Origin: an uncultured Chlorobiaceae bacterium
GTDB taxonomy: Bacteria; Bacteroidota; Chlorobiia; Chlorobiales; Chlorobiaceae
DNA: 44,245 nucleotides
Assembly (NCBI GenBank): GCA_903866255.1
Contig: CAIPMW010000013.1
Location: 1-44,245 of the forward strand
Direction: 5' to 3'
The notes under the pieces are model-generated. The model had not been told where the DNA came from. It searched no databases and saw nothing but the letters and a program-made list of their open reading frames with translations. Positions 8,939 through 20,220 of the stretch are shown piece by piece. The translations under genes and the position numbers were made by a program. Position 1 is the stretch's first letter. Each line of letters begins with the position of its first letter.

Positions 8939-10675
8939 CTAAAGTCCTTCACCCATCCCCATCTGGATATACCCTGAAGGGCAGACCAGCGAACAAAGAT
9001 GGCATCCGACGCATTTGGAATAATTGGTATAGACCACTTCACCGGGAGGATTGTCCCTGAACCGGGTAACGGCTTCCTGGGGACAGAATGAGACGCACTG
9101 TTTGCAGTCGAAACAGAGCCCGCAACTCATGCAACGCTCTGACTCTGCCTTTACTTGACTCTCTGTCAGCGCTACAAGAAGTTCATCGTGGTTACCAACC
9201 ACCTCATCCAGTTCAATGGTCTCGCGCTTTGCCTGTTCAGAGTGTATAAAGTAAAGCACGTCCTGCTTATGGACTTTTGTTATCTCCCGATAACCCTGCT
9301 CAGGAAGAGACTCCCCTTTAAGAAACGCGTCGATGGAATTTGCAGCCTTGCGTCCGTGACCAACGGCCGTGGTAATAAGATCGACTTTTATGGCATCTCC
9401 ACCTCCGAAGATTTTTTCCTTGCCTTGCAGGCGATAATATCGGTCAACCTTTAACCATGGGCTGGCAGCAGTAACGCTTTCAAAACCACGCATGTCGGCT
9501 GTCTGCCCGATGGCAGCAACAATCATATCGGCCTCAATGTCAAAAGTCTCTTCAGTGTTTTTATACCTGAAAAAGGGAACCGGTGAATTCCAGCCCTCTT
9601 CACCCTTCACTTTTTTCACCATGCGGGCACAGCGCAGAGCCTGAACGCCATCTTTTCCCTTGATGACTTCCAGCGCACCTGCCATATAATGCATGGTTGT
9701 TCCTTCTCTGGCCGCATCATCAAACTCAATCTGGAAGCAAGCCATCTCCTCTTGTGGAACACCGGCTACCACTGATGCCTGGGAACCAAGCCGAAGCGCA
9801 AGACGCGCCACATCCATCGCGACGTTTCCATCGCCTATAATCAAGACCTTTTTGCCTATACTGACGTCATCGCCCTGAACTTCATAATTTCTCAGAAAAT
9901 CAATGGCATTGGTCACACCGGGAGTACCAGCGGAACCCGCGACAGGAAGAGAACGACCAACCTGTGCTCCAGGAGCCAGAAAAATCGCATCGTACTCTTG
10001 ATCGAGTTGCTCAAGGGAGATATCCGTTCCTACACGTACTCCCATTTTGGTCTCAACCCCAAGGCTGATAATACGCTGAATTTCTGTTTCAAGAATTTTA
10101 CGATCGACCCGGTAGCCCATGATGCCATAGAGTACCATGCCACCCAATTTTTCATTGGCATCGTAAATCGTTACGGCATGACCTTTTCGACGAAGCTGGT
10201 AGGCTGCGGAAAGTCCTGCCGGGCCACCTCCGATAACAGCAACTCTCTTGCCGCTCTCAGGCCCTGCTCCAGGCAGTTGCAGACCGGATTCAATGCCGTA
10301 ATTGCCAATCGCCTGTTCAACAGCATTAATGGCCACACTTTCGTCGTGGTACTGGCGATTGCATGCGCTCTGGCAGGGATGCGGACAAATCCGGCCCATA
10401 ACGGCAGGAAAAGGATTGGCATCGACAATCATTTCCCATGCGGCTTTCCACGCATTATCGGATTTGTCGATACCGTTCAGCAACCGCTGATACCCCCTGA
10501 TATTCTCCCCTGCCGGACATTCCGCCGAACATGGCGGAAGCTGGCTGACATAGACCGGACACTTGTGACTGTGATCTCCAAATGCGACAATTTTATCCGT
10601 TCCCGTCAGTTCACGGTATGGGGGGAACTCGTAAGCTATCGCAGAATCAAGGATTGGATTGGATTCTACCTTCAT
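8939..10675 (-). CDS. dsrL: DsrL, NAD(P)H:acceptor iron-sulfur flavoprotein
   Basis: A 578-residue cytoplasmic flavoprotein of the glutamate-synthase small-subunit type. The N-terminal region CSAECPAGENIRGYQ...RICPHPCQSACNR binds Fe-S. The FAD dinucleotide fold VAVIGGGPAGLSAAYQLRR follows at about residue 145, then a second NAD(P)-binding fold KVLIIGDGNVAMDVARLAL. The C-terminus carries ferredoxin motifs CMSCGLCFDCKQCVSFCP and CVGCHLCSLVCP. DsrL couples DsrAB to the NAD(P)H pool and is diagnostic of sulfur-oxidising dsr operons. It is somewhat shorter than the roughly 650 residues I recall for purple-bacterial DsrL. A good ribosome-binding site (AGGAG) precedes ATG 10675, and dsrB ends 18 bp upstream. 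Confidence 0.95.
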   Translation of the reverse strand: MKVESNPILDSAIAYEFPPYRELTGTDKIVAFGDHSHKCPVYVSQLPPCSAECPAGENIRGYQRLLNGIDKSDNAWKAAWEMIVDANPFPAVMGRICPHPCQSACNRQYHDESVAINAVEQAIGNYGIESGLQLPGAGPESGKRVAVIGGGPAGLSAAYQLRRKGHAVTIYDANEKLGGMVLYGIMGYRVDRKILETEIQRIISLGVETKMGVRVGTDISLEQLDQEYDAIFLAPGAQVGRSLPVAGSAGTPGVTNAIDFLRNYEVQGDDVSIGKKVLIIGDGNVAMDVARLALRLGSQASVVAGVPQEEMACFQIEFDDAAREGTTMHYMAGALEVIKGKDGVQALRCARMVKKVKGEEGWNSPVPFFRYKNTEETFDIEADMIVAAIGQTADMRGFESVTAASPWLKVDRYYRLQGKEKIFGGGDAIKVDLITTAVGHGRKAANSIDAFLKGESLPEQGYREITKVHKQDVLYFIHSEQAKRETIELDEVVGNHDELLVALTESQVKAESERCMSCGLCFDCKQCVSFCPQEAVTRFRDNPPGEVVYTNYSKCVGCHLCSLVCPSGYIQMGMGEGL

Positions 10676-10693
10676 GAATTATCTCCTGTAAGT

Positions 10694-11773
10694 CTAAAAG
10701 CGGACATGAGCAGACTGATTGAATGTGGTTCTTGCATGACGGTAACTGTCAATCATATCATCATCAAAAGTAAGTCCCGTTTCTTCAAAAAAGCGTTTCC
10801 ATCCAATACGGTTAATCCACTCTCCGACTCGTTCCCAAGGACGTCCGCCCTCTTTGTAGGCAGTCAGGATTTTACCGATTACATCAGTGACCTCAGGCCA
10901 TCTTGGCGGATTGTTTGGCAGATTGTGTGCGACAATACTCATCGTTGATGGTTTGGAGCGGGCATTGCTGTTTTTGCCACCGACCCAGATCGCAAACTTT
11001 GAGTGCTCGGGATGGTTGATCTCCATTGCAGGGCAGGCACCGAAACAGGCACCGCAGCAGATACACTTTTCCTCATCAACCATGAGCGATTTCTTGCCAT
11101 TAATCACTGTCGGCCTTATAGCCGCAACAGGGCAACGGGCAACCGCTTTTGGCAATTCACAGATGGTTGCGAGGTGATCGTGATTGATTCTTGGGGGACG
11201 GGTGTGTTTGATAACCACAGCGATATCGGCCTGGCCTCCACAGTTAATGGCGCAGCAGGAGGTAGAGAGCCTCACCTTGTTGGGCATCTCCATCCCCCTG
11301 AATTCATGGTACAACGTGTCCATCATTGACTTGACAACGCCGGAAGCATCAGTCGCCGGAATATCACAATGAAGCCACCCCTGGGTATGGGATACGGAGG
11401 AGACGCACATTCCTGTTCCACCGACCGGAAAGCCCATCGCTTCGAGCTCGCGGATCATCGGCTCCACATTTGCTTCGTTGGGTGTCAGAAACTCAACGTT
11501 ATTGCGTACCGTGAAGCGAAGATAACCATCGCTGTACTTGTCGGCAACATCACAAAGTCGTCTCAGCATATCAACCGTGTCCTGACGGGGCGTTCCTGCC
11601 CGGACAGTATAGATAGCGTCACCACTGTGAGCGACATGCTTCAGAACTCCCGGCTTTGGAATTTCGTGATATTTCCACTTCCCGTAGTTCTTTCTTACAA
11701 CCGGATGCAAGGCCTCCTCATAGCTGTGAGGCCCCGACTCCTGGGTTTTCCACTTTTTTTCAGGACTGCTCAT
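10694..11773 (-). CDS. dsrB: DsrB, reverse-type dissimilatory sulfite reductase beta subunit
   Basis: A 359-residue subunit of siroheme sulfite reductase. Siroheme/[4Fe-4S] cysteines are visible as the CVSS...HTQGWLHC region and CCAINCGG. A ferredoxin-type domain follows with CPVAAIRP and CICCGACFGACPAM. The C-terminal WPEVTDVIGKILTAYKEGG and ERVGEWINRIGWKRFFEETG match DsrB. With DsrA it works here in the oxidative direction, releasing sulfite from DsrC-bound sulfur. The direction is inferred from the accompanying dsrL, dsrEFH and Soe-like genes. The 96-bp gap to dsrA contains no clear terminator. Confidence 0.97.
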   Translation of the reverse strand: MSSPEKKWKTQESGPHSYEEALHPVVRKNYGKWKYHEIPKPGVLKHVAHSGDAIYTVRAGTPRQDTVDMLRRLCDVADKYSDGYLRFTVRNNVEFLTPNEANVEPMIRELEAMGFPVGGTGMCVSSVSHTQGWLHCDIPATDASGVVKSMMDTLYHEFRGMEMPNKVRLSTSCCAINCGGQADIAVVIKHTRPPRINHDHLATICELPKAVARCPVAAIRPTVINGKKSLMVDEEKCICCGACFGACPAMEINHPEHSKFAIWVGGKNSNARSKPSTMSIVAHNLPNNPPRWPEVTDVIGKILTAYKEGGRPWERVGEWINRIGWKRFFEETGLTFDDDMIDSYRHARTTFNQSAHVRF

Positions 11774-11869
11774 ATTGTTATTCCTTAAATTTTACCTTTC
11801 TCAACAAGGTGTGTGACCACCTCATTGAGAGAGTTGAATTCGATCAAGAGAATCTGCCGCTTAACGGGC

Positions 11870-13114
11870 TCAGTACTTAGCCTTGAAATAAGGATTATCA
11901 CGAGGCCTTGTCACCATATTGATGTTTGCTTCAAGACCGACGCCTTCAAGGAAGAGCTTCAAACCGACGCGCTCAATGGTTTCGCCGATACGTTCGTGGT
12001 CCAGACCGTTGTCATCCCACCAGTCGATAATTCCCTCAACCAGTTCGATAAACTCATCCATATCCTCGTCACTCTCCATCTTCATGAAGGGCACAATCAG
12101 CGAGCCCATGTTGACACCGACTTTCAGGGTGTTCTTTCCGCCCATCAGAAGGGAAATTCCCCGCTCATTGCCGGGAGAAAGTGCCTTGGGCATAACGTTC
12201 AGGCAGTGCATGCAACGTACGCAATCCCTGCTGTCAATGACCATCTCACCATCTTTGAGAGATATGGCCTTTGTAGGACAAAGATTGATGACCTGGTTAA
12301 CCAGTGCATCCGTACCATTTTTTTCAACCCAGGCCGTCACCTCTTCGGGTTCAATCTGGATTGCATCCTTCCATGTGCCTATAACAGCCAGATCAGAGCG
12401 CATGATGGCATTGGTGCAATCATTCGGACATCCTGAAAACTTCAGCTTGATTTTATAGTTCCATTCGGGACGATGAAGTGGCCCTACAAAATGTTTGAGC
12501 AGCTTGAGATGGGCCTTGAGATCATCGTAGCAGGCATTCTCGCAACGACCGGGTCCGATACAGGAGACCGCTGTACGCATACCTGCTCCAGCGCCACCAA
12601 GATCCCAGCCTGCCTGGTTGAGCTCATCAAAACACTCCTGAACTTTATCCTGTTCAATGCCTTGCAGCATGATGTCACCGGTCTGCCCATGGAGGGTAAT
12701 GATCCCGCTGCCATACTTTTCCCAGGTATCACAAAGTCCGCGAAGCATCTCTGTGTTGTAGTGAAGTCCCGGTGCCGGCTGAATTCGCATCGTGTGAAAT
12801 TCAGTTGCTTCAGGAAACTTGTCTTTTATCATCGAATAGCGCGTGATAACACCGGCGCCATAACCGTCTACCGTTACCAGACCGCCTTTCCAGTACCCCA
12901 TTTTGGTATTGTAGGAGTACTCAAGCTGATCCATAACCCCACGTAACATGGGCTTTTCCGTTCTTTCGGCAAGTTCCTTGAACCCGGAAATAAAACTTGG
13001 CCAAGGGCCTTTTTCCAGTTCATCGAGCATAGGGGTGGGATTCAAAAACTTTCCGTTCCCACCATCTTTACTCTGTATTACTTCATCTGAAGCAGCCTTT
13101 TGAGCGCCTTCCAT
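11870..13114 (-). CDS. dsrA: DsrA, reverse-type dissimilatory sulfite reductase alpha subunit
   Basis: A 414-residue catalytic subunit. The siroheme/[4Fe-4S] binding cysteines lie in CIGPGRCENACYDD and KFSGCPNDCTNA (C-x5-C and C-x3-C pattern). The inserted ferredoxin domain has CPTKAISL and CVRCMHCLNVMPKAL. Length and motif order are those of DsrA. A strong ribosome-binding site (AAAGGAGGT) lies just upstream of ATG 13114, and dsrC ends 56 bp upstream. The protein forms an alpha2beta2 core with DsrB and docks the C-terminal arm of DsrC at its active site. Confidence 0.97.
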   Translation of the reverse strand: MEGAQKAASDEVIQSKDGGNGKFLNPTPMLDELEKGPWPSFISGFKELAERTEKPMLRGVMDQLEYSYNTKMGYWKGGLVTVDGYGAGVITRYSMIKDKFPEATEFHTMRIQPAPGLHYNTEMLRGLCDTWEKYGSGIITLHGQTGDIMLQGIEQDKVQECFDELNQAGWDLGGAGAGMRTAVSCIGPGRCENACYDDLKAHLKLLKHFVGPLHRPEWNYKIKLKFSGCPNDCTNAIMRSDLAVIGTWKDAIQIEPEEVTAWVEKNGTDALVNQVINLCPTKAISLKDGEMVIDSRDCVRCMHCLNVMPKALSPGNERGISLLMGGKNTLKVGVNMGSLIVPFMKMESDEDMDEFIELVEGIIDWWDDNGLDHERIGETIERVGLKLFLEGVGLEANINMVTRPRDNPYFKAKY

Positions 13115-13170
13115 TATGACCTCCTTTGATTCACAGTAAAATTGGGATCAGCAAACCTCTCTTCTGTCGA

Positions 13171-13506
13171 CTAAACGCAACCCGTAGGTTTCGGCAGTCC
13201 GGCAATTTTGCATGCCTGTAAACCTGGCCCTTTAGGAAAAAGCCCGTAGAGAAATTCGGATGCAGCTTTTTTATCCATCTCCTTTTCCGTCGCGATTGCC
13301 TTGGTTAGCACCTTTACAGCCGGAGCAATCTGATATTCTTCATAATATCCTCTGAGAAAAGTGACCATATCCCAATGTGCCTGAGTCATTTCGATCTCCT
13401 CTCCCTCTGCCAGTACCTTCGCAATATCCTCGTTCCAGTCATCAAGATTGATGAGATATCCATTCTCATCCGTTTCATAACTAGCACCATTGACTTCAAT
13501 TGCCAT
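13171..13506 (-). CDS. dsrC: DsrC, persulfide carrier protein
   Basis: A 111-residue DsrC/TusE-family protein, first gene of the operon. The C-terminal arm ends KIAGLPKPTGCV and carries both conserved redox cysteines, Cys99 and the penultimate Cys110, spaced as in true DsrC. It receives sulfur from DsrEFH, presents it to DsrAB and is handled by DsrK as a trisulfide or heterodisulfide. The start MAIEVNGASYETDENGYL is supported by AAAGGAGAAAA upstream of ATG 13506. A long leader and probable promoter region lie to its right. Confidence 0.97.
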   Translation of the reverse strand: MAIEVNGASYETDENGYLINLDDWNEDIAKVLAEGEEIEMTQAHWDMVTFLRGYYEEYQIAPAVKVLTKAIATEKEMDKKAASEFLYGLFPKGPGLQACKIAGLPKPTGCV

Positions 13507-14574: not shown

Positions 14575-14913
14575 TTACCTCCGCGAACCGCCCCGGTGTG
14601 ATCCTGAGCCTTTGCCGACTCCCTTGCCACCAGGGCCATCCGTAAACAACCTGCTCTCTGACTGCTCACCAAAGCATGAGCCATCAAAGATTTTTCTGTT
14701 TGTGTTTGAAAACCCGGCCCGGCCCTGAACTGCGTCATTGATCCCATCACCATCTTCATCGATAAATTGCAGCTTCTTAAGCTCCCTGTTCCCGGATTCA
14801 ACTGCCGGACTGATGCTGGATGTCGGGTTGCTGGATGCTGCTTCTCCGGCCACTACCGGTTGACAAAATCCGGAAACAAGGATGATGGTGAAAACGATTT
14901 GTTTTGAAATCAT
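14575..14913 (-). CDS. Small secreted protein with one DxDGDG calcium-binding-type motif and Gly/Arg tail
   Basis: A 112-residue protein with a signal peptide (MISKQIVFTIILVSGFCQPVVAG, quoted in part). The motif QFIDEDGDGINDAVQGRAGF is cited here by its key residues D-x-D-G-D-G-x-N-D, a thrombospondin type 3/dockerin-like calcium-binding loop. The C-terminus is Gly/Lys/Arg/Ser rich (GGKGVGKGSGSHRGGSRR). One cysteine (FDGSCFGE) remains in the mature part. It is a paralogue in layout of the next gene upstream and lies between it and the cytochrome gene. I do not recognise a named family; an envelope or extracellular location is inferred from the signal peptide. Confidence 0.75.
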   Translation of the reverse strand: MISKQIVFTIILVSGFCQPVVAGEAASSNPTSSISPAVESGNRELKKLQFIDEDGDGINDAVQGRAGFSNTNRKIFDGSCFGEQSESRLFTDGPGGKGVGKGSGSHRGGSRR

Positions 14914-15003: not shown

Positions 15004-15327
15004 TCAGCGACCTCTTCTTGCGCTTCCATTAGTACCAGTGCCAGTACAGACACCTGTTCCCGTTCCGGTGTTCAATGATGTTCCTGCTGTTGCCCCTCTG
15101 CGACTTCCTGTCCCGTCCTGGGCTCGAACGTAATCAGGATCCTGACCGTTTGGAATGCCATCTCCATCAGCATCCGGCGCGTTATCGTTGATGCCATCTC
15201 CATTCACATCGACAAACCCGATTCCGAACATGTTGGTGAGCGGATTTCCTGCGGCAAAGAGCTGGGCTGATGGTGCAAAGCTGAAGATCATTCCTGCGAC
15301 TGCAACTAAACGAATAAACTGTTTCAT
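15004..15327 (-). CDS. Small secreted protein with tandem DxDGDG calcium-binding-type repeats
   Basis: A 107-residue protein with a signal peptide (MKQFIRLVAVAGMIFSFAPS, cleavage near LFAAG). Two adjacent calcium-binding-type loops follow, FVDVNGDGINDN and DADGDGIPNGQDPDY, the latter a classic thrombospondin type 3 repeat. The C-terminal third is a Thr/Gly/Ser/Arg-rich tail (TGTGTGVCTGTGTNGSARR) containing a single cysteine. It is the first gene after the sigma-54 promoter, with a strong ribosome-binding site (AAAGGAGAAAGCC) before ATG 15327. The function is unknown; co-expression with a cytochrome and with the similar 112-residue protein is inferred. Confidence 0.78.
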   Translation of the reverse strand: MKQFIRLVAVAGMIFSFAPSAQLFAAGNPLTNMFGIGFVDVNGDGINDNAPDADGDGIPNGQDPDYVRAQDGTGSRRGATAGTSLNTGTGTGVCTGTGTNGSARRGR

Positions 15328-15413: not shown

Positions 15414-15430
15414 CCACAATTAGCGTGCCA
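15414..15430 (-). promoter_or_regulatory. Sigma-54 (-24/-12) promoter
   Basis: On the minus strand the sequence reads TGGCACG-CTAA-TTGTG. The consensus is TGGCACG-N4-TTGCW, so the -24 element is perfect and the -12 element differs by one base. It lies about 90 nt upstream of the start of the 107-residue secreted protein gene, next to an NtrC-type activator gene whose product is expected to drive such a promoter. Confidence 0.85.
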
Positions 15431-15518
15431 CCCGCCATATAATATTTTAAGCAATTATATAATAGTGCTTTAAACAAAAAACGCATTTGCTCTTCGGTTG
15501 CAGATATCTCGATCATGC

Positions 15519-15553
15519 CGACCACCTGGTCGCTGTTTCGACCAAATGGTCGA
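15519..15553. promoter_or_regulatory. Tandem palindromic enhancer sites for the NtrC-type regulator
   Basis: Two near-identical palindromes lie side by side: CGACCACCTGGTCG (15519-15532) and TCGACCAAATGGTCGA (15538-15553). They share the pattern CGACCA-N2-TGGTCG and their centres are exactly 20 bp apart, about two helical turns, so dimers would bind the same face of DNA. They are about 95-130 bp upstream of the sigma-54 promoter, the usual distance for enhancer-binding proteins, and begin 20 bp beyond the end of the regulator gene. Binding by that regulator is inferred. Confidence 0.8.
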
Positions 15554-15572
15554 TGATGGAGATCCCGAAGAG

Positions 15573-16931
15573 CTACTTCATACCATACTTTTTCAGCTTG
15601 TAACGCAGGTGCCGTTCACTGATACCGAGCTGTTCTGCGGCTCTCGTCTGCACTTGACCAGCCACTCTCAGTGCATCAAGGATCAGTGAGCGCTCAAATG
15701 CTTCGACCTTTTCAGTAAAGGAGGAGGCCGCTGATTGCCATGAGCCTGAATGCTGTATACCCTCATTAACCCTGACGGGAAGATCTTTTACCATAATCGT
15801 TTCGCCACGGGAAAGCACGACTGATTGCTGAATGATGTTTTCCAGCTCGCGAACATTTCCAGGGTAAGAGTATTTCATCAAGGTATCCATGGCCTCTCTT
15901 GAAATTCCTGCAATCCGCTTGTTGTTTTCTGATGCAAAACGACGGACAAAGAGTTCGGCAAGTGGAGGAATATCTTCACGTCGGTCTCTCAGGGGTGGAA
16001 TCCTTATTGAAACAACATTCAGCCGATAGAACAGGTCCTGACGAAATGTCCCCTCTCTGACCATTGCTTCGAGGTCACGGTTTGTTGCAGCGACAATGCG
16101 GGCATTTGCCTTTAGGGGAGTGCTGCTGCCGATACGCTCAAAGGTTTTCTCCTGTAATACCCGCAGTAACTTGACCTGGAGGGAAAGGGGAATTTCGCCG
16201 ACTTCATCAATGAACAGTGTGCCGCCATCCGCCGTCTCAAATCGACCTTTCCGCTGTCGGTCGGCACCGGTATACGCGCCCTTTTCATGACCAAACAGTT
16301 CACTTTCAAGCAGATTATCCGGTAGTGCAGCACAATTGACAGCGACAAAAGGTTGGTCATGCCGGGATCCTGAAAAATGAACACTTTTTGCGATGAGTTC
16401 CTTGCCTGTGCCGGTCTCGCCGGTAATCAGCACGGATGCATTGCTGTCGGCTACCCGTCCGGCAATATTCAGAACAAGGCTCATCCCGGAGGATTCCGAT
16501 ATTATGCCTTCAACACTGAAACGCTCTGAAAGCTGCTGGCGAAGCAGCCTGTTTTCGCTGACGAGTTGTTTTCGTTCGACAATGTTGCGTATCAGTACCT
16601 GAAGCCGGTAAAGATCAATCGGCTTGGTGATGTAGTCGGCAGCCCCCAGCTTCATGGCCTCTATTGCTGATTCCACGGTGCCATAAGCGGTCATGATAAT
16701 GACCTGAACAGAAGGATTGATCTCCTTTATGGCTTCAAGAAGCTCAACGCCGCTCATACCGGGCATCTTGAAATCGGAGAGAACGATATCGACCGCATTT
16801 TCCCTGACAGTCATAAGTGCGTTTTCAGGGTGAGTCGCCTTCAGAACCTGATAACCCTGTTTTGTCAAAAATCCGGCAAGGCTTTCCAGTTGTACCGTCT
16901 CGTCTTCGACTACGAGAATCGTATAATCCAT
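15573..16931 (-). CDS. NtrC-family sigma-54-dependent response regulator
   Basis: A 452-residue enhancer-binding protein in three parts. The receiver domain (residues 1-120) has phosphoacceptor Asp53 in LSDFKMPGMSG. The AAA+ sigma-54 interaction domain has Walker A GETGTGKE (171-178), the GAFTGA-type loop as GAYTGA (218-223) and Walker B LFIDEVGE. The C-terminal Fis-type helix-turn-helix has RAAEQLGISERHLRYKLKK. I start at ATG 16931 (MDYTILVVEDE), preceded by AGGGA; the longer frame would overlap the kinase gene. It is paired with the histidine kinase immediately upstream and probably acts on the enhancer/promoter pair just downstream. Confidence 0.93.
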   Translation of the reverse strand: MDYTILVVEDETVQLESLAGFLTKQGYQVLKATHPENALMTVRENAVDIVLSDFKMPGMSGVELLEAIKEINPSVQVIIMTAYGTVESAIEAMKLGAADYITKPIDLYRLQVLIRNIVERKQLVSENRLLRQQLSERFSVEGIISESSGMSLVLNIAGRVADSNASVLITGETGTGKELIAKSVHFSGSRHDQPFVAVNCAALPDNLLESELFGHEKGAYTGADRQRKGRFETADGGTLFIDEVGEIPLSLQVKLLRVLQEKTFERIGSSTPLKANARIVAATNRDLEAMVREGTFRQDLFYRLNVVSIRIPPLRDRREDIPPLAELFVRRFASENNKRIAGISREAMDTLMKYSYPGNVRELENIIQQSVVLSRGETIMVKDLPVRVNEGIQHSGSWQSAASSFTEKVEAFERSLILDALRVAGQVQTRAAEQLGISERHLRYKLKKYGMK

Positions 16932-16968
16932 TGTCACGTCCCTTTTTTTTGTTACTGCCAATAGCCCT

Positions 16969-19014
16969 TCACAACAGGGGCAGAACAATTCTGAAAATGC
17001 TGCCCGCCCCTTCACGGCTTTCGACTTCCAGAATTCCTCCATGAGCCTGAACGATCTGGTTAGCTATGCTCAGGCCCATTCCGGTACCATTATCCTTTGA
17101 GGTAAAATAGAGATTGAATATCTGAGAGAGCATTTTTACTGGAATTCCTTTGCCGGTATCGGCAACCTCAATGAAGGCATTTCCGGGGCGCTTGCCTGCA
17201 GTGACGGTCACGATTCCATTTTCCTGGGTGGCTTCTACCGCATTCCGGACAAGATTGAGCAATACCTGCTGCATCTGCTCCCTGTCGAGAGAAACCTTGC
17301 TTTCCGAACAGGCTTGCACGCTAAATTCCAATCCTTTGGCTTTGGCTTCACCCTCCAGAACGGGCCGATATTGTTCTATCAACTCGTCAAGGTCAGAAGG
17401 CATCAGCATGAGCTGCGGAGGGCGGGCAAATTTCAGAAATCGCTGAATGATGGCATTAACTCGATACACCTCAGAGACGATAGCACGAACAAGATGATGA
17501 TACTCCTGCTCGTCTTCAGTTGGCGAAAACTCCATGTCGAGCCGCTGCCCCAAAACGCCGATTGCATTGAGAGGATTGCGGATTTCATGCGCCACCCCGG
17601 AAGCGAGTTCGCCCATTGCGGTAAGTTTTTCCTGACGCTCGATCACTTTCTGCATGGAGCGTTGCTCAGTCATATCCCTCAAGACGACAAAAGCCCCGTC
17701 CGAAAAGTTCTCAGTGCCAGTGATGAGGCTGAAGTGCACTGAAAGTATAAGCCGACGGTTTTTGGTGATGCATTCGAACTCCTTTGTGTTTGCAGTCGTC
17801 GGGCTGGCAATCAGCTCCATGAGCAATGTTCCGCACTCAGGCAGAATCTCCCTGACAGGCTTGTCAATCACATCGGCACCTGTTATACTGAAAAGCTGTT
17901 CTGCTGCACTGTTGACCAGGGTGATGCGCCCCTCCGTGTTTACTGCTATAACCGCATCCGCCATATTTTCGAGGATAGAGGAGGAAAACAGCTTTTCACG
18001 AAGGTACGCCTCCTTGACCATCAATTCATTCCGTCGGGTGATAATAAGATTGAAGACCGCCAGCCCTCCTATAACTGCAAGGGCGAGAAGCAACAGAAGT
18101 CGAGTTTGAATTTTCTCTGATGCTTCCATAAAATGATCGATTTTCAGTCCGATACGAAGCAGGCCGACTTTGTTGCCTTGATAGAGAAACGGCTTGATGA
18201 CTTCAAAAACATCTCTGCCTCTGAATTTTGTAAACCTGGTGATTGACTTGTTCTGTTGCAGTGCCGTCGAAAGCGCCGGGTCGGATTGTATTGTTTCGGT
18301 TTCAGTCACATTGGGCGTTGCGGCAATGATGGCTGACGTATCCTGCCAGATGATATAATCGATCCCCGCCGCATCGCGACCCGTGCGCTGGATAAGTCTG
18401 CCGGGTCCAATCTCCCGCTGCATGGCAAGCAGCCTTGATGCGTCAACATTGCCGACAATGGCGCCGCCTCGCCTTCTGGCCACAGCAACCACCAACCGGA
18501 CGCCTTTTCCGGAATCACTCTCCCTGATCCCGAGGTTGAGTACCTCTGTTTTTCCGGAAAGAATCGGCATGAGCTGACTGGAGGGATCGCAATTCCGAAG
18601 AAGAGGAGTATGATCTGACGGTGTGTTCCATGCAATTCGCTTGCCGTCACGATCAATAATGGTTATTCGATACATGCCGCTTTTACCGGCAATTTCAGAA
18701 AGATCATCAGATGTCAACGCTTTCTGAGAGTCCATCCTCTCAATAAGCCGCAACTGGTCCGCCAGGCCACCGGTGACAAGAGCATTGATCTCATTATACC
18801 CGATCAGTGCTGTTTCGGTGCCTTCGGTAAGAAAATGAACAAGCAGTGAAGACTCTTCGTGCATCAGATTCTCAATCTCTTCCATTCGAGATTTATAATG
18901 CAGAAACGCTGTAGCTGCGAAGACAATAACCAACACGAAAAACATCCCGGCAAGATATTTTGGCGGGATTGGCAGTAGATGCCATTGAGGTTTTTTCTTG
19001 CGCATCATGAGCAC
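16969..19014 (-). CDS. Membrane sensor histidine kinase (periplasmic sensor, PAS, HisKA, HATPase)
   Basis: A 681-residue two-component kinase. A membrane helix at residues 19-40 and a second at about 303-326 bracket a periplasmic sensor domain of about 260 residues, probably of the Cache type (RITIIDRDGKRIAWNTPSDH). A PAS domain follows (ENMADAVIAVNTEGRITLV), then the HisKA dimerisation box with phosphoacceptor His476 (SGVAHEIRNPLNAIG). The HATPase domain has N-box LLNLVRNAVEA, DTGKGIP and GTGMGLSIANQIV. The track start is GTG 19014; ATG 19008 or 19005 is equally likely because no clear ribosome-binding site is present. The signal sensed is unknown. Confidence 0.92.
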   Translation of the reverse strand: MLMMRKKKPQWHLLPIPPKYLAGMFFVLVIVFAATAFLHYKSRMEEIENLMHEESSLLVHFLTEGTETALIGYNEINALVTGGLADQLRLIERMDSQKALTSDDLSEIAGKSGMYRITIIDRDGKRIAWNTPSDHTPLLRNCDPSSQLMPILSGKTEVLNLGIRESDSGKGVRLVVAVARRRGGAIVGNVDASRLLAMQREIGPGRLIQRTGRDAAGIDYIIWQDTSAIIAATPNVTETETIQSDPALSTALQQNKSITRFTKFRGRDVFEVIKPFLYQGNKVGLLRIGLKIDHFMEASEKIQTRLLLLLALAVIGGLAVFNLIITRRNELMVKEAYLREKLFSSSILENMADAVIAVNTEGRITLVNSAAEQLFSITGADVIDKPVREILPECGTLLMELIASPTTANTKEFECITKNRRLILSVHFSLITGTENFSDGAFVVLRDMTEQRSMQKVIERQEKLTAMGELASGVAHEIRNPLNAIGVLGQRLDMEFSPTEDEQEYHHLVRAIVSEVYRVNAIIQRFLKFARPPQLMLMPSDLDELIEQYRPVLEGEAKAKGLEFSVQACSESKVSLDREQMQQVLLNLVRNAVEATQENGIVTVTAGKRPGNAFIEVADTGKGIPVKMLSQIFNLYFTSKDNGTGMGLSIANQIVQAHGGILEVESREGAGSIFRIVLPLL

Positions 19015-19284
19015 CGGTATATATACATCCCTTTTTAACCTCGACAGTATCAGAATTGATGCTCCGGGAATAATGGTAAAGATCGCAGCCTTGATTCAAC
19101 CCGATTTATTAGCTATATATTCTGAGATGGTAGTGGTTTTCGGGCTTCAGAAGCACCTTAATTTCCGAATGTAACCGATAAGATCATTGCTTGAAAGCCA
19201 AAAAAGTCCTTTTATTGATTCAACAAGTGTAAACGGGTTTTATTTATACTCCAAATCCCATACAACCTTAAATGCTGAAAAAAA

Positions 19285-19512
19285 ATGCAAAAAAATGTAG
19301 GGCAAATAGATAAAACAATCCGAATTGTTATCGGCGCGACGGTCATCGTTGCCGGGATCATCAATCATTCGTGGTGGGGCGCTGTTGGAGTTGTCCCGCT
19401 TTTGACCGCTTTTATAGGGTTTTGCCCTCTCTATTCTGTGCTGAAGATTTCGACAGGCGGAAGATGTTGTTGTAATGAAAAACCCAGGAAAAATAGCTCC
19501 TGCGAGCGTTGA
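19285..19512 (+). CDS. YgaP-like (DUF2892) small inner-membrane protein
   Basis: A 75-residue protein with two hydrophobic segments (RIVIGATVIVAGIINHSWW and GVVPLLTAFIGFCPLYSVL), a layout characteristic of the DUF2892/YgaP transmembrane domain. This domain is often fused or adjacent to rhodaneses. The FCPLYSVL motif is typical. The C-terminus is cysteine-rich and basic (GRCCCNEKPRKNSSCER). It is divergent from the kinase operon, which is transcribed away on the other strand, and converges with the lipoprotein gene. No strong ribosome-binding site is seen upstream of ATG 19285. Confidence 0.8.
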   Translation: MQKNVGQIDKTIRIVIGATVIVAGIINHSWWGAVGVVPLLTAFIGFCPLYSVLKISTGGRCCCNEKPRKNSSCER

Positions 19513-19551
19513 TGGGTAAATGACATTTTTATTGGATAAAAGAGATACTGT

Positions 19552-20220
19552 TTACTCCTTGACACATCGGACTGAAAAACCGGTATTTTTATTGGCCTTC
19601 CCTTTTCGCAAAGCGGCATCGAAGTAGCCGAGCGAGCGGCACCATGCACTCTTGGCTGTGACTTCTGTTGAAGACCATAATCGGCTGTACTCACCTGGTG
19701 GCATGAAATGGCCGTCGGTATCGCGCCGGGCTCCAGCAGGAAGAGCCTCAAAAGCACTTTGGCTGTTGGCATCAGCACTCTCCTCTTTCCAGCCGGAGGC
19801 TGATTTCAGCGCTCCACCGGCATTTTCAGTTCCGCCGAGCAGTTCAGTGAGTGCGCTCCATTCAGCATCGGTGGCTACGTGCCAGCCTGCCGGGGCAAGG
19901 CCTCTCGGGTCGTTGACAGCATACCAGTTATAGAGCTTTCCGTAGGTTTTCCCGTTTTTCTGCCTGTTTTTGTTATAACACCAAGCGCCTGTTGTGAGTG
20001 TTGCCCACTTGGCGGAATCCTGTACTTCAGGAATCGGCTCGCCGTTCCGGTAGTGTGCCACATCAAGATTTTTGCCTGTCCAGATCATGGAGCCTCTCCG
20101 AATGGCCGGATAGCTGTTGCCGTCAAGATCAACAGCCTTTTCTGGCTTTCTGCTGCATCCTGCCGACAAAAGGATGAGAGCAAACACTCCTGCCAAGAGA
20201 GGCAGTTTTTGTCTATTCAT
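19552..20220 (-). CDS. FISUMP-domain lipoprotein
   Basis: A 222-residue secreted lipoprotein. The signal peptide MNRQKLPLLAGVFALILLSA ends in a lipobox with the acylated cysteine (SAGC). The rest is a Fibrobacter succinogenes major paralogous (FISUMP) domain: GSMIWTGKNLDVAHY, YGKLYNWYAVNDPRGLAPAG, GWHVATDAEWSALTELLGG, RLWSSTEV and the closing GFSVRCVKE. The function of this domain is unknown; it occurs on many surface proteins of Bacteroidota and Chlorobiota. The start at ATG 20220 has AGGAATA upstream and overlaps the end of the methyltransferase gene by 8 bp, so the two are probably cotranscribed. Confidence 0.85.
   Translation of the reverse strand: MNRQKLPLLAGVFALILLSAGCSRKPEKAVDLDGNSYPAIRRGSMIWTGKNLDVAHYRNGEPIPEVQDSAKWATLTTGAWCYNKNRQKNGKTYGKLYNWYAVNDPRGLAPAGWHVATDAEWSALTELLGGTENAGGALKSASGWKEESADANSQSAFEALPAGARRDTDGHFMPPGEYSRLWSSTEVTAKSAWCRSLGYFDAALRKGKANKNTGFSVRCVKE

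Follow-up and report, generated by a model that had tools for sequence, protein, structure and literature searches.

A conserved tandem palindrome as the predicted enhancer of a sigma-54 promoter for small exported D-x-DGDG proteins in Chlorobiaceae

Genes and sequence features of the locus

The window analysed here is the whole 44,245-nucleotide stretch of contig CAIPMW010000013.1 (assembly GCA_903866255.1), which comes from an uncultured Chlorobiaceae bacterium. The features of the locus, all assigned to the minus strand, are as follows.

16969..19014, minus strand: sensor histidine kinase (Pfam sCache, PAS, HisKA and HATPase), the predicted cognate kinase
15573..16931, minus strand: NtrC-type response regulator (Pfam receiver, AAA+ Sigma54_activat and Fis-type HTH, HTH_8), the predicted binder of the palindrome pair
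15539..15552, minus strand: palindrome 1 (promoter-distal), CGACCATTTGGTCG, a perfect dyad in conserved alignment columns, predicted upstream-activator site
15519..15532, minus strand: palindrome 2 (promoter-proximal), CGACCAGGTGGTCG, a perfect dyad in conserved alignment columns, predicted upstream-activator site
15489..15573, minus strand: long imperfect hairpin enclosing both palindromes (-49.8 kcal/mol, z -6.5)
15415..15430, minus strand: -24/-12 (sigma-54) promoter element, TGGCACG-CTAA-TTGTG, matching 10 of 12 consensus positions
15004..15327, minus strand: first gene past the promoter, encoding a 107-aa exported protein with D-x-DGDG repeats
14575..14913, minus strand: gene for a second small exported D-x-DGDG protein, 112 aa
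13976..14389, minus strand: gene for an exported cytochrome c, 137 aa (Pfam Cytochrom_C / Cytochrome_CBB3)

The regulator has the domain set of NtrC-type proteins (bEBP), that is, a receiver, Sigma54_activat and HTH_8. Its loop reads GAYTGA, and the regulators of two distant loci (L052, from a KSB1 genome, and L055, from a Gemmatimonadaceae genome) have GAFTGA; GAYTGA is a GAFTGA variant that has been reported to be functional and compatible with activation (PMC6615313). The longest called regulator open reading frame (489 aa) begins within the kinase gene (16931-17042), so that this upstream extension and the called kinase frame overlap; homology favours the later ATG at 16931 (452 aa) as the regulator start. 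The kinase gene adjoins the regulator gene in the examined Chlorobiaceae loci and also in L052, L055, L244 and L246.

Two palindromes lie between the regulator gene and an exported-protein gene

The palindromes are situated between the regulator stop codon (15573) and the start of the 107-aa exported-protein gene (15327), and read CGACCACCTGGTCG (15519-15532) and CGACCAAATGGTCG (15539-15552) on the plus strand. The preliminary description had reported the pattern CGACCA-N2-TGGTCG twice, with the same arms and unlike centres, and this was confirmed: CGACCA-CC-TGGTCG occupies the first position and CGACCA-AA-TGGTCG the second. Its further statement that the two sites stand exactly two helical turns apart is slightly overstated, because the centre-to-centre distance of 20 bp corresponds to about 1.9 turns. 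In distant relatives the dyad spacing is 21-22 bp.

Genome-wide searches were done by pattern. The results showed that the exact 14-mer occurs at two places in the whole 2.8-Mb genome, both in the pair, and that CGAC-N6-GTCG-N6-CGAC-N6-GTCG occurs once. With up to three mismatches allowed, the pair pattern gave eight matches (seven besides the pair itself, the best of them with three mismatches) versus 31 for a reversed-pattern control, so no further pairs were recognized in this genome. Degenerate palindromes taken singly are frequent: 28 of 100 shuffles of the window contained two or more sites with no more than two mismatches. A dispersed, REP-like repeat was rejected as an explanation since the genome has one pair only; for the same reason the genome offers no internal replicate. 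The expectation in the preliminary description that the same pair would be found near other sigma-54 promoters therefore failed in this genome, but held in relatives, where second or distal pairs precede -24/-12 elements.

A -24/-12 promoter element stands at a phased distance from the pair

The -24/-12 promoter claimed beside the pair is indeed present on the minus strand, running from 15430 down to 15415 at 88 bp from the nearer palindrome. Its -12 box is off consensus (TTGT, not TTGC), the distance from the -24 start to the ATG at 15327 is 103 bp, and the spacer between the dyads and the promoter is A+T-rich (66%). The locus combines sequence features expected of an upstream activator site (UAS): tandem dyads, a -24/-12 element with its GG and TG elements at a loop-compatible distance, and an rpoN gene, which was found in the genome.

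Across relatives, a -24/-12 element was detected for 47 of 49 distinct pairs, on exactly one side and within 72-112 bp, and for none on both sides; the background rate of such an element is 0.8% per random 40-nt window on one strand. The distances from pair to element were 75-79 bp (n = 6), 86-90 bp (n = 40) and 98 bp (n = 1), with intermediate values absent. At the Gemmatimonadaceae locus L055 the distance was 110 bp, and in the sister genomes carrying L129 and L130 it differed by 20 bp (98 versus 78 bp). By comparative inference, and with the reservation that related genomes are not independent, these distance classes are those to be expected of an activator that has to be turned towards the polymerase across looped DNA. 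The steps of 10 to 12 bp and of 20 bp in the distance between enhancer and promoter would then show, in natural sequences, the helical phasing of a sigma-54 promoter.

The pair is conserved together with the regulator in Chlorobiaceae

Orthologues of the regulator, defined by at least 69% identity to the regulator of the window, were found in 39 of 86 Chlorobiaceae genomes. According to the preliminary description, absence of the pair upstream of orthologous promoters would have spoken against the proposal. The result showed that the pair (core CGAC-N6-GTCG, spacing exactly 20) lies just past the stop codon of the orthologous regulator in 34 loci (some genomes being counted twice), accompanied by a -24/-12 element at the phased distance; L128, with a spacing of 21 bp, is a further locus beyond these 34.

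In an alignment of 25 distinct 34-mers, the CGAC...GTCG columns of the footprint carried about 1.5-2.0 bits and the flanks mostly 0-0.6 bits. In each dyad the eight CGAC/GTCG letters are near-invariant, the six inner letters are partly conserved, with the inner C/A and T/G positions varying among orthologues, and the flanks are almost free, indicating that CGACCA-N2-TGGTCG is the local version of a CGAC-N6-GTCG core.

Among the 86 genomes, 37 have both regulator and pair, two the regulator alone, one the pair alone and 46 neither (Fisher p ~9e-21 for the association, the genomes being related and not independent). By inspection, chance-like one-mismatch matches (mostly in the family's second genus, and one in G045) were omitted from this count and G030, with a spacing of 21 bp, was added. 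As for the two genomes with the regulator alone, in G045 a degenerate pair is present, 89 bp from a -24/-12 element, and in G046 the locus stops at the contig edge.

Several further NtrC-type regulators are encoded in this genome and in those of its relatives, and the pair might accordingly be bound by another protein, either a repressor or a different activator, rather than by the adjacent response regulator. We consider this very unlikely, given that presence of the pair tracks the regulator orthologue as described above, that distant relatives with the same site encode a regulator 50-56% identical and similar in its HTH, and that an enhancer-binding protein requires just such a constant, phased distance to a -24/-12 element.

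A hairpin behind the regulator gene is private to the species

A 9-bp perfect outer inverted repeat, missed by the preliminary description, surrounds the dyads (GCTCTTCGG at 15489-15497 and CCGAAGAGC at 15565-15573), and the resulting hairpin begins at the regulator stop codon. Because these outer arms enclose the dyads, the regulator transcript could end in a hairpin of -49.8 kcal/mol, which is followed by a GTTTTTTG tract. The block could accordingly be an intrinsic terminator, or a processed hairpin that ends the regulator transcript, with the palindromes merely being its nested stems. However, sister species whose regulators are 97% identical retain the dyads but have lost the outer arms, the folding of most orthologous regions hardly exceeds that of shuffled sequence (z mostly between -3 and +1), and distal pairs stand behind no regulator gene. 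The stem is strong, but it is unconserved and the T run begins about 7 nt beyond it; the hairpin was also not listed by an intrinsic-terminator scan. We therefore regard a terminator origin of the palindromes as very unlikely. On comparison of these sequences the hairpin is private to the species of the window, where it may serve as a species-specific terminator of the regulator gene, and it does not explain the dyads. The probability that the pair arose by chance is negligible, as it is unique in the genome, is conserved in tens of genomes and had no occurrence in 60 Mb of simulated, window-like random DNA.

The pair precedes genes for small exported proteins and cytochrome c

Homologues of the 107-aa protein gene follow the pair in most pair-bearing Chlorobiaceae. 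The 112-aa protein gene is probably on the same transcript, and this gene order is kept in L046, L172 and other loci. The 137-aa cytochrome c is a probable member of the regulon as well: in G036, G040, G041, G043, G047, G050, G076 and G027 a homologue comes immediately after a pair and -24/-12 element. The small exported target proteins carry repeats of the type FVDxNGDGINDNAPDADGDGIPNGQDPDY and gave no significant hit among the Pfam and NCBIfam families. Pairs were also found before the kinase gene and at distal places, and nearly all pairs, including those distant from the regulator, precede either a small exported D-x-DGDG gene or a c-type cytochrome gene. G029 and G039 have an exported D-x-DGDG gene (loci L241 and L242) with neither a regulator orthologue nor a pair, showing that the target is not always under such control.

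In G078, whose regulator is 97% identical, the interval between the kinase gene and a FISUMP-like gene (L172, 5350-5923) holds one more pair and one more D-x-DGDG gene; the stretch 19014-19552 of the window is without both.

In the window, dsrL, dsrB, dsrA and dsrC (8939-13506) follow immediately after the regulon genes and share their strand. A link to these neighbouring sulfur-oxidation genes was considered and rejected, as among the loci compared the arrangement is confined to the window's own clade (L046) and absent in the L047-L050 loci.

The DNA pattern alone retrieves the regulon from distant genomes

A search of 394 genomes of the phylum with a pattern made up of the pair, 65-115 bp and TGGCAC gave matches in 22 Chlorobiaceae genomes and in four others (G095, G099, G126 and G162); the reversed pattern gave none in the same 394 genomes. 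In all four of the other genomes (4/4) the pair immediately precedes a small exported D-x-DGDG gene. In these genomes the exported gene is followed by a probable beta-barrel gene of roughly 376-405 aa and, if the contig extends far enough, by a sensor kinase gene. Outside Chlorobiaceae, barrel genes recur beside exported D-x-DGDG genes at the following positions.

L052, 2519-3757: probable outer-membrane beta-barrel gene
L055, 2763-3893: probable outer-membrane beta-barrel gene
L238, 1644-2858: probable outer-membrane beta-barrel gene
L239, 3190-4317: probable outer-membrane beta-barrel gene

The probable barrel proteins have 376-412 aa, with a weak SlipAM match for those of L238 and L052 and no match to a clear Pfam family. 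The kinase gene of G099 and G126 is followed by a regulator gene whose product is 50-52% identical, and kinase and regulator may therefore be self-activated in these two genomes; in G162 the DNA examined showed no regulator gene immediately after the kinase gene. The KSB1 locus L052 shares this layout with one good dyad and one half dyad, as does the Gemmatimonadaceae locus L055, with two dyads 21 bp apart. The regulon can be retrieved from distant genomes by its DNA pattern alone.

Proposed mechanism

Taken together, the conservation of the pair, the phased -24/-12 elements, the co-occurrence with the regulator and the genes that pairs precede support the enhancer geometry put forward in the preliminary description. 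It is highly probable, judging from sequence comparison, that the palindromes are the enhancer (UAS) of a sigma-54 promoter for the neighbouring NtrC-type regulator, driving an operon of exported D-x-DGDG proteins that probably includes the cytochrome c. From the elements, their conservation and phasing, the co-occurrence and the genes observed, we infer the following course of binding, phosphorylation, ring assembly, looping and transcription. Two regulator dimers would occupy the neighbouring dyads, both on one face of the helix. The adjacent sensor kinase would phosphorylate the regulator, whereupon an active AAA+ ring would assemble. The A+T-rich intervening DNA would loop, so that the ring could open sigma-54 RNA polymerase at the -24/-12 element, and the operon for the small exported D-x-DGDG proteins, probably with the cytochrome c behind them, would be transcribed. 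Assembly of an AAA+ ring and DNA looping are general features of this activator family. Background on both for these proteins is given in PMC6296734.

On a wider view, there is about an even chance that the pair marks a previously undescribed sigma-54 two-component module, present in Chlorobiaceae, other Bacteroidota, a KSB1 genome and a Gemmatimonadaceae genome. In it, a dedicated kinase and its regulator would govern the small exported D-x-DGDG proteins and, along with them, an outer-membrane beta-barrel or, among the Chlorobiaceae, a cytochrome c. The role of such a module may lie in metal handling at the cell surface or in extracellular electron transfer. The analysis provides a DNA site, predicted almost to the base, for an uncharacterised sigma-54 activator. 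It also connects the family of small exported D-x-DGDG proteins with a dedicated sensor kinase and, for green sulfur bacteria, with cytochrome c. The function of these proteins thereby becomes testable, from the signal of the kinase to the regulon.

Comparison with known systems

The D-x-DGDG-x-x-D loops of the target proteins resemble TSP3 and dockerin-like calcium-binding repeats, with weak matches only (to TSP3_bac, obtained with the KSB1 homologue, and to cartilage oligomeric matrix protein, at an E value of 0.24). ZraSR controls a small periplasmic protein via sigma-54, and ZraS-ZraR is the second-best NCBIfam match of kinase and regulator; however, the regulator reached 431 bits against a ZraR cut-off of 760 (NF007689), and the target proteins are from a different family. 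The best NCBIfam match of both proteins is AtoS-AtoC, but the scores of regulator (531 versus 714 bits, NF008469) and kinase (299 versus 646 bits) lie below the equivalog cut-offs, and the target genes are unrelated.

The system resembles NtrC of Escherichia coli in its receiver-AAA+-Fis HTH regulator and in having dyad sites that serve a -24/-12 promoter. The consensus site of NtrC is TGCACCAnnnTGGTGCA (PMC8743547), with which the site of the window shares the inner ACCA...TGGT. Unlike the NtrC box, the latter is a 14-bp CGACCA-N2-TGGTCG with a 2-bp centre, and its targets are exported proteins rather than nitrogen genes; the regulator scored 430 bits, below the NtrC equivalog cut-off of 558.6 (TIGR01818). 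No description of such a sigma-54 regulon in Chlorobium, or of the target protein family, was found among the open-access papers searched. Control of surface and exported components by sigma-54 is a theme argued in PMC3162934, and the regulon of the window fits it. Tandem-dyad enhancers are already known; what is new here is the site, its regulon and their spread.
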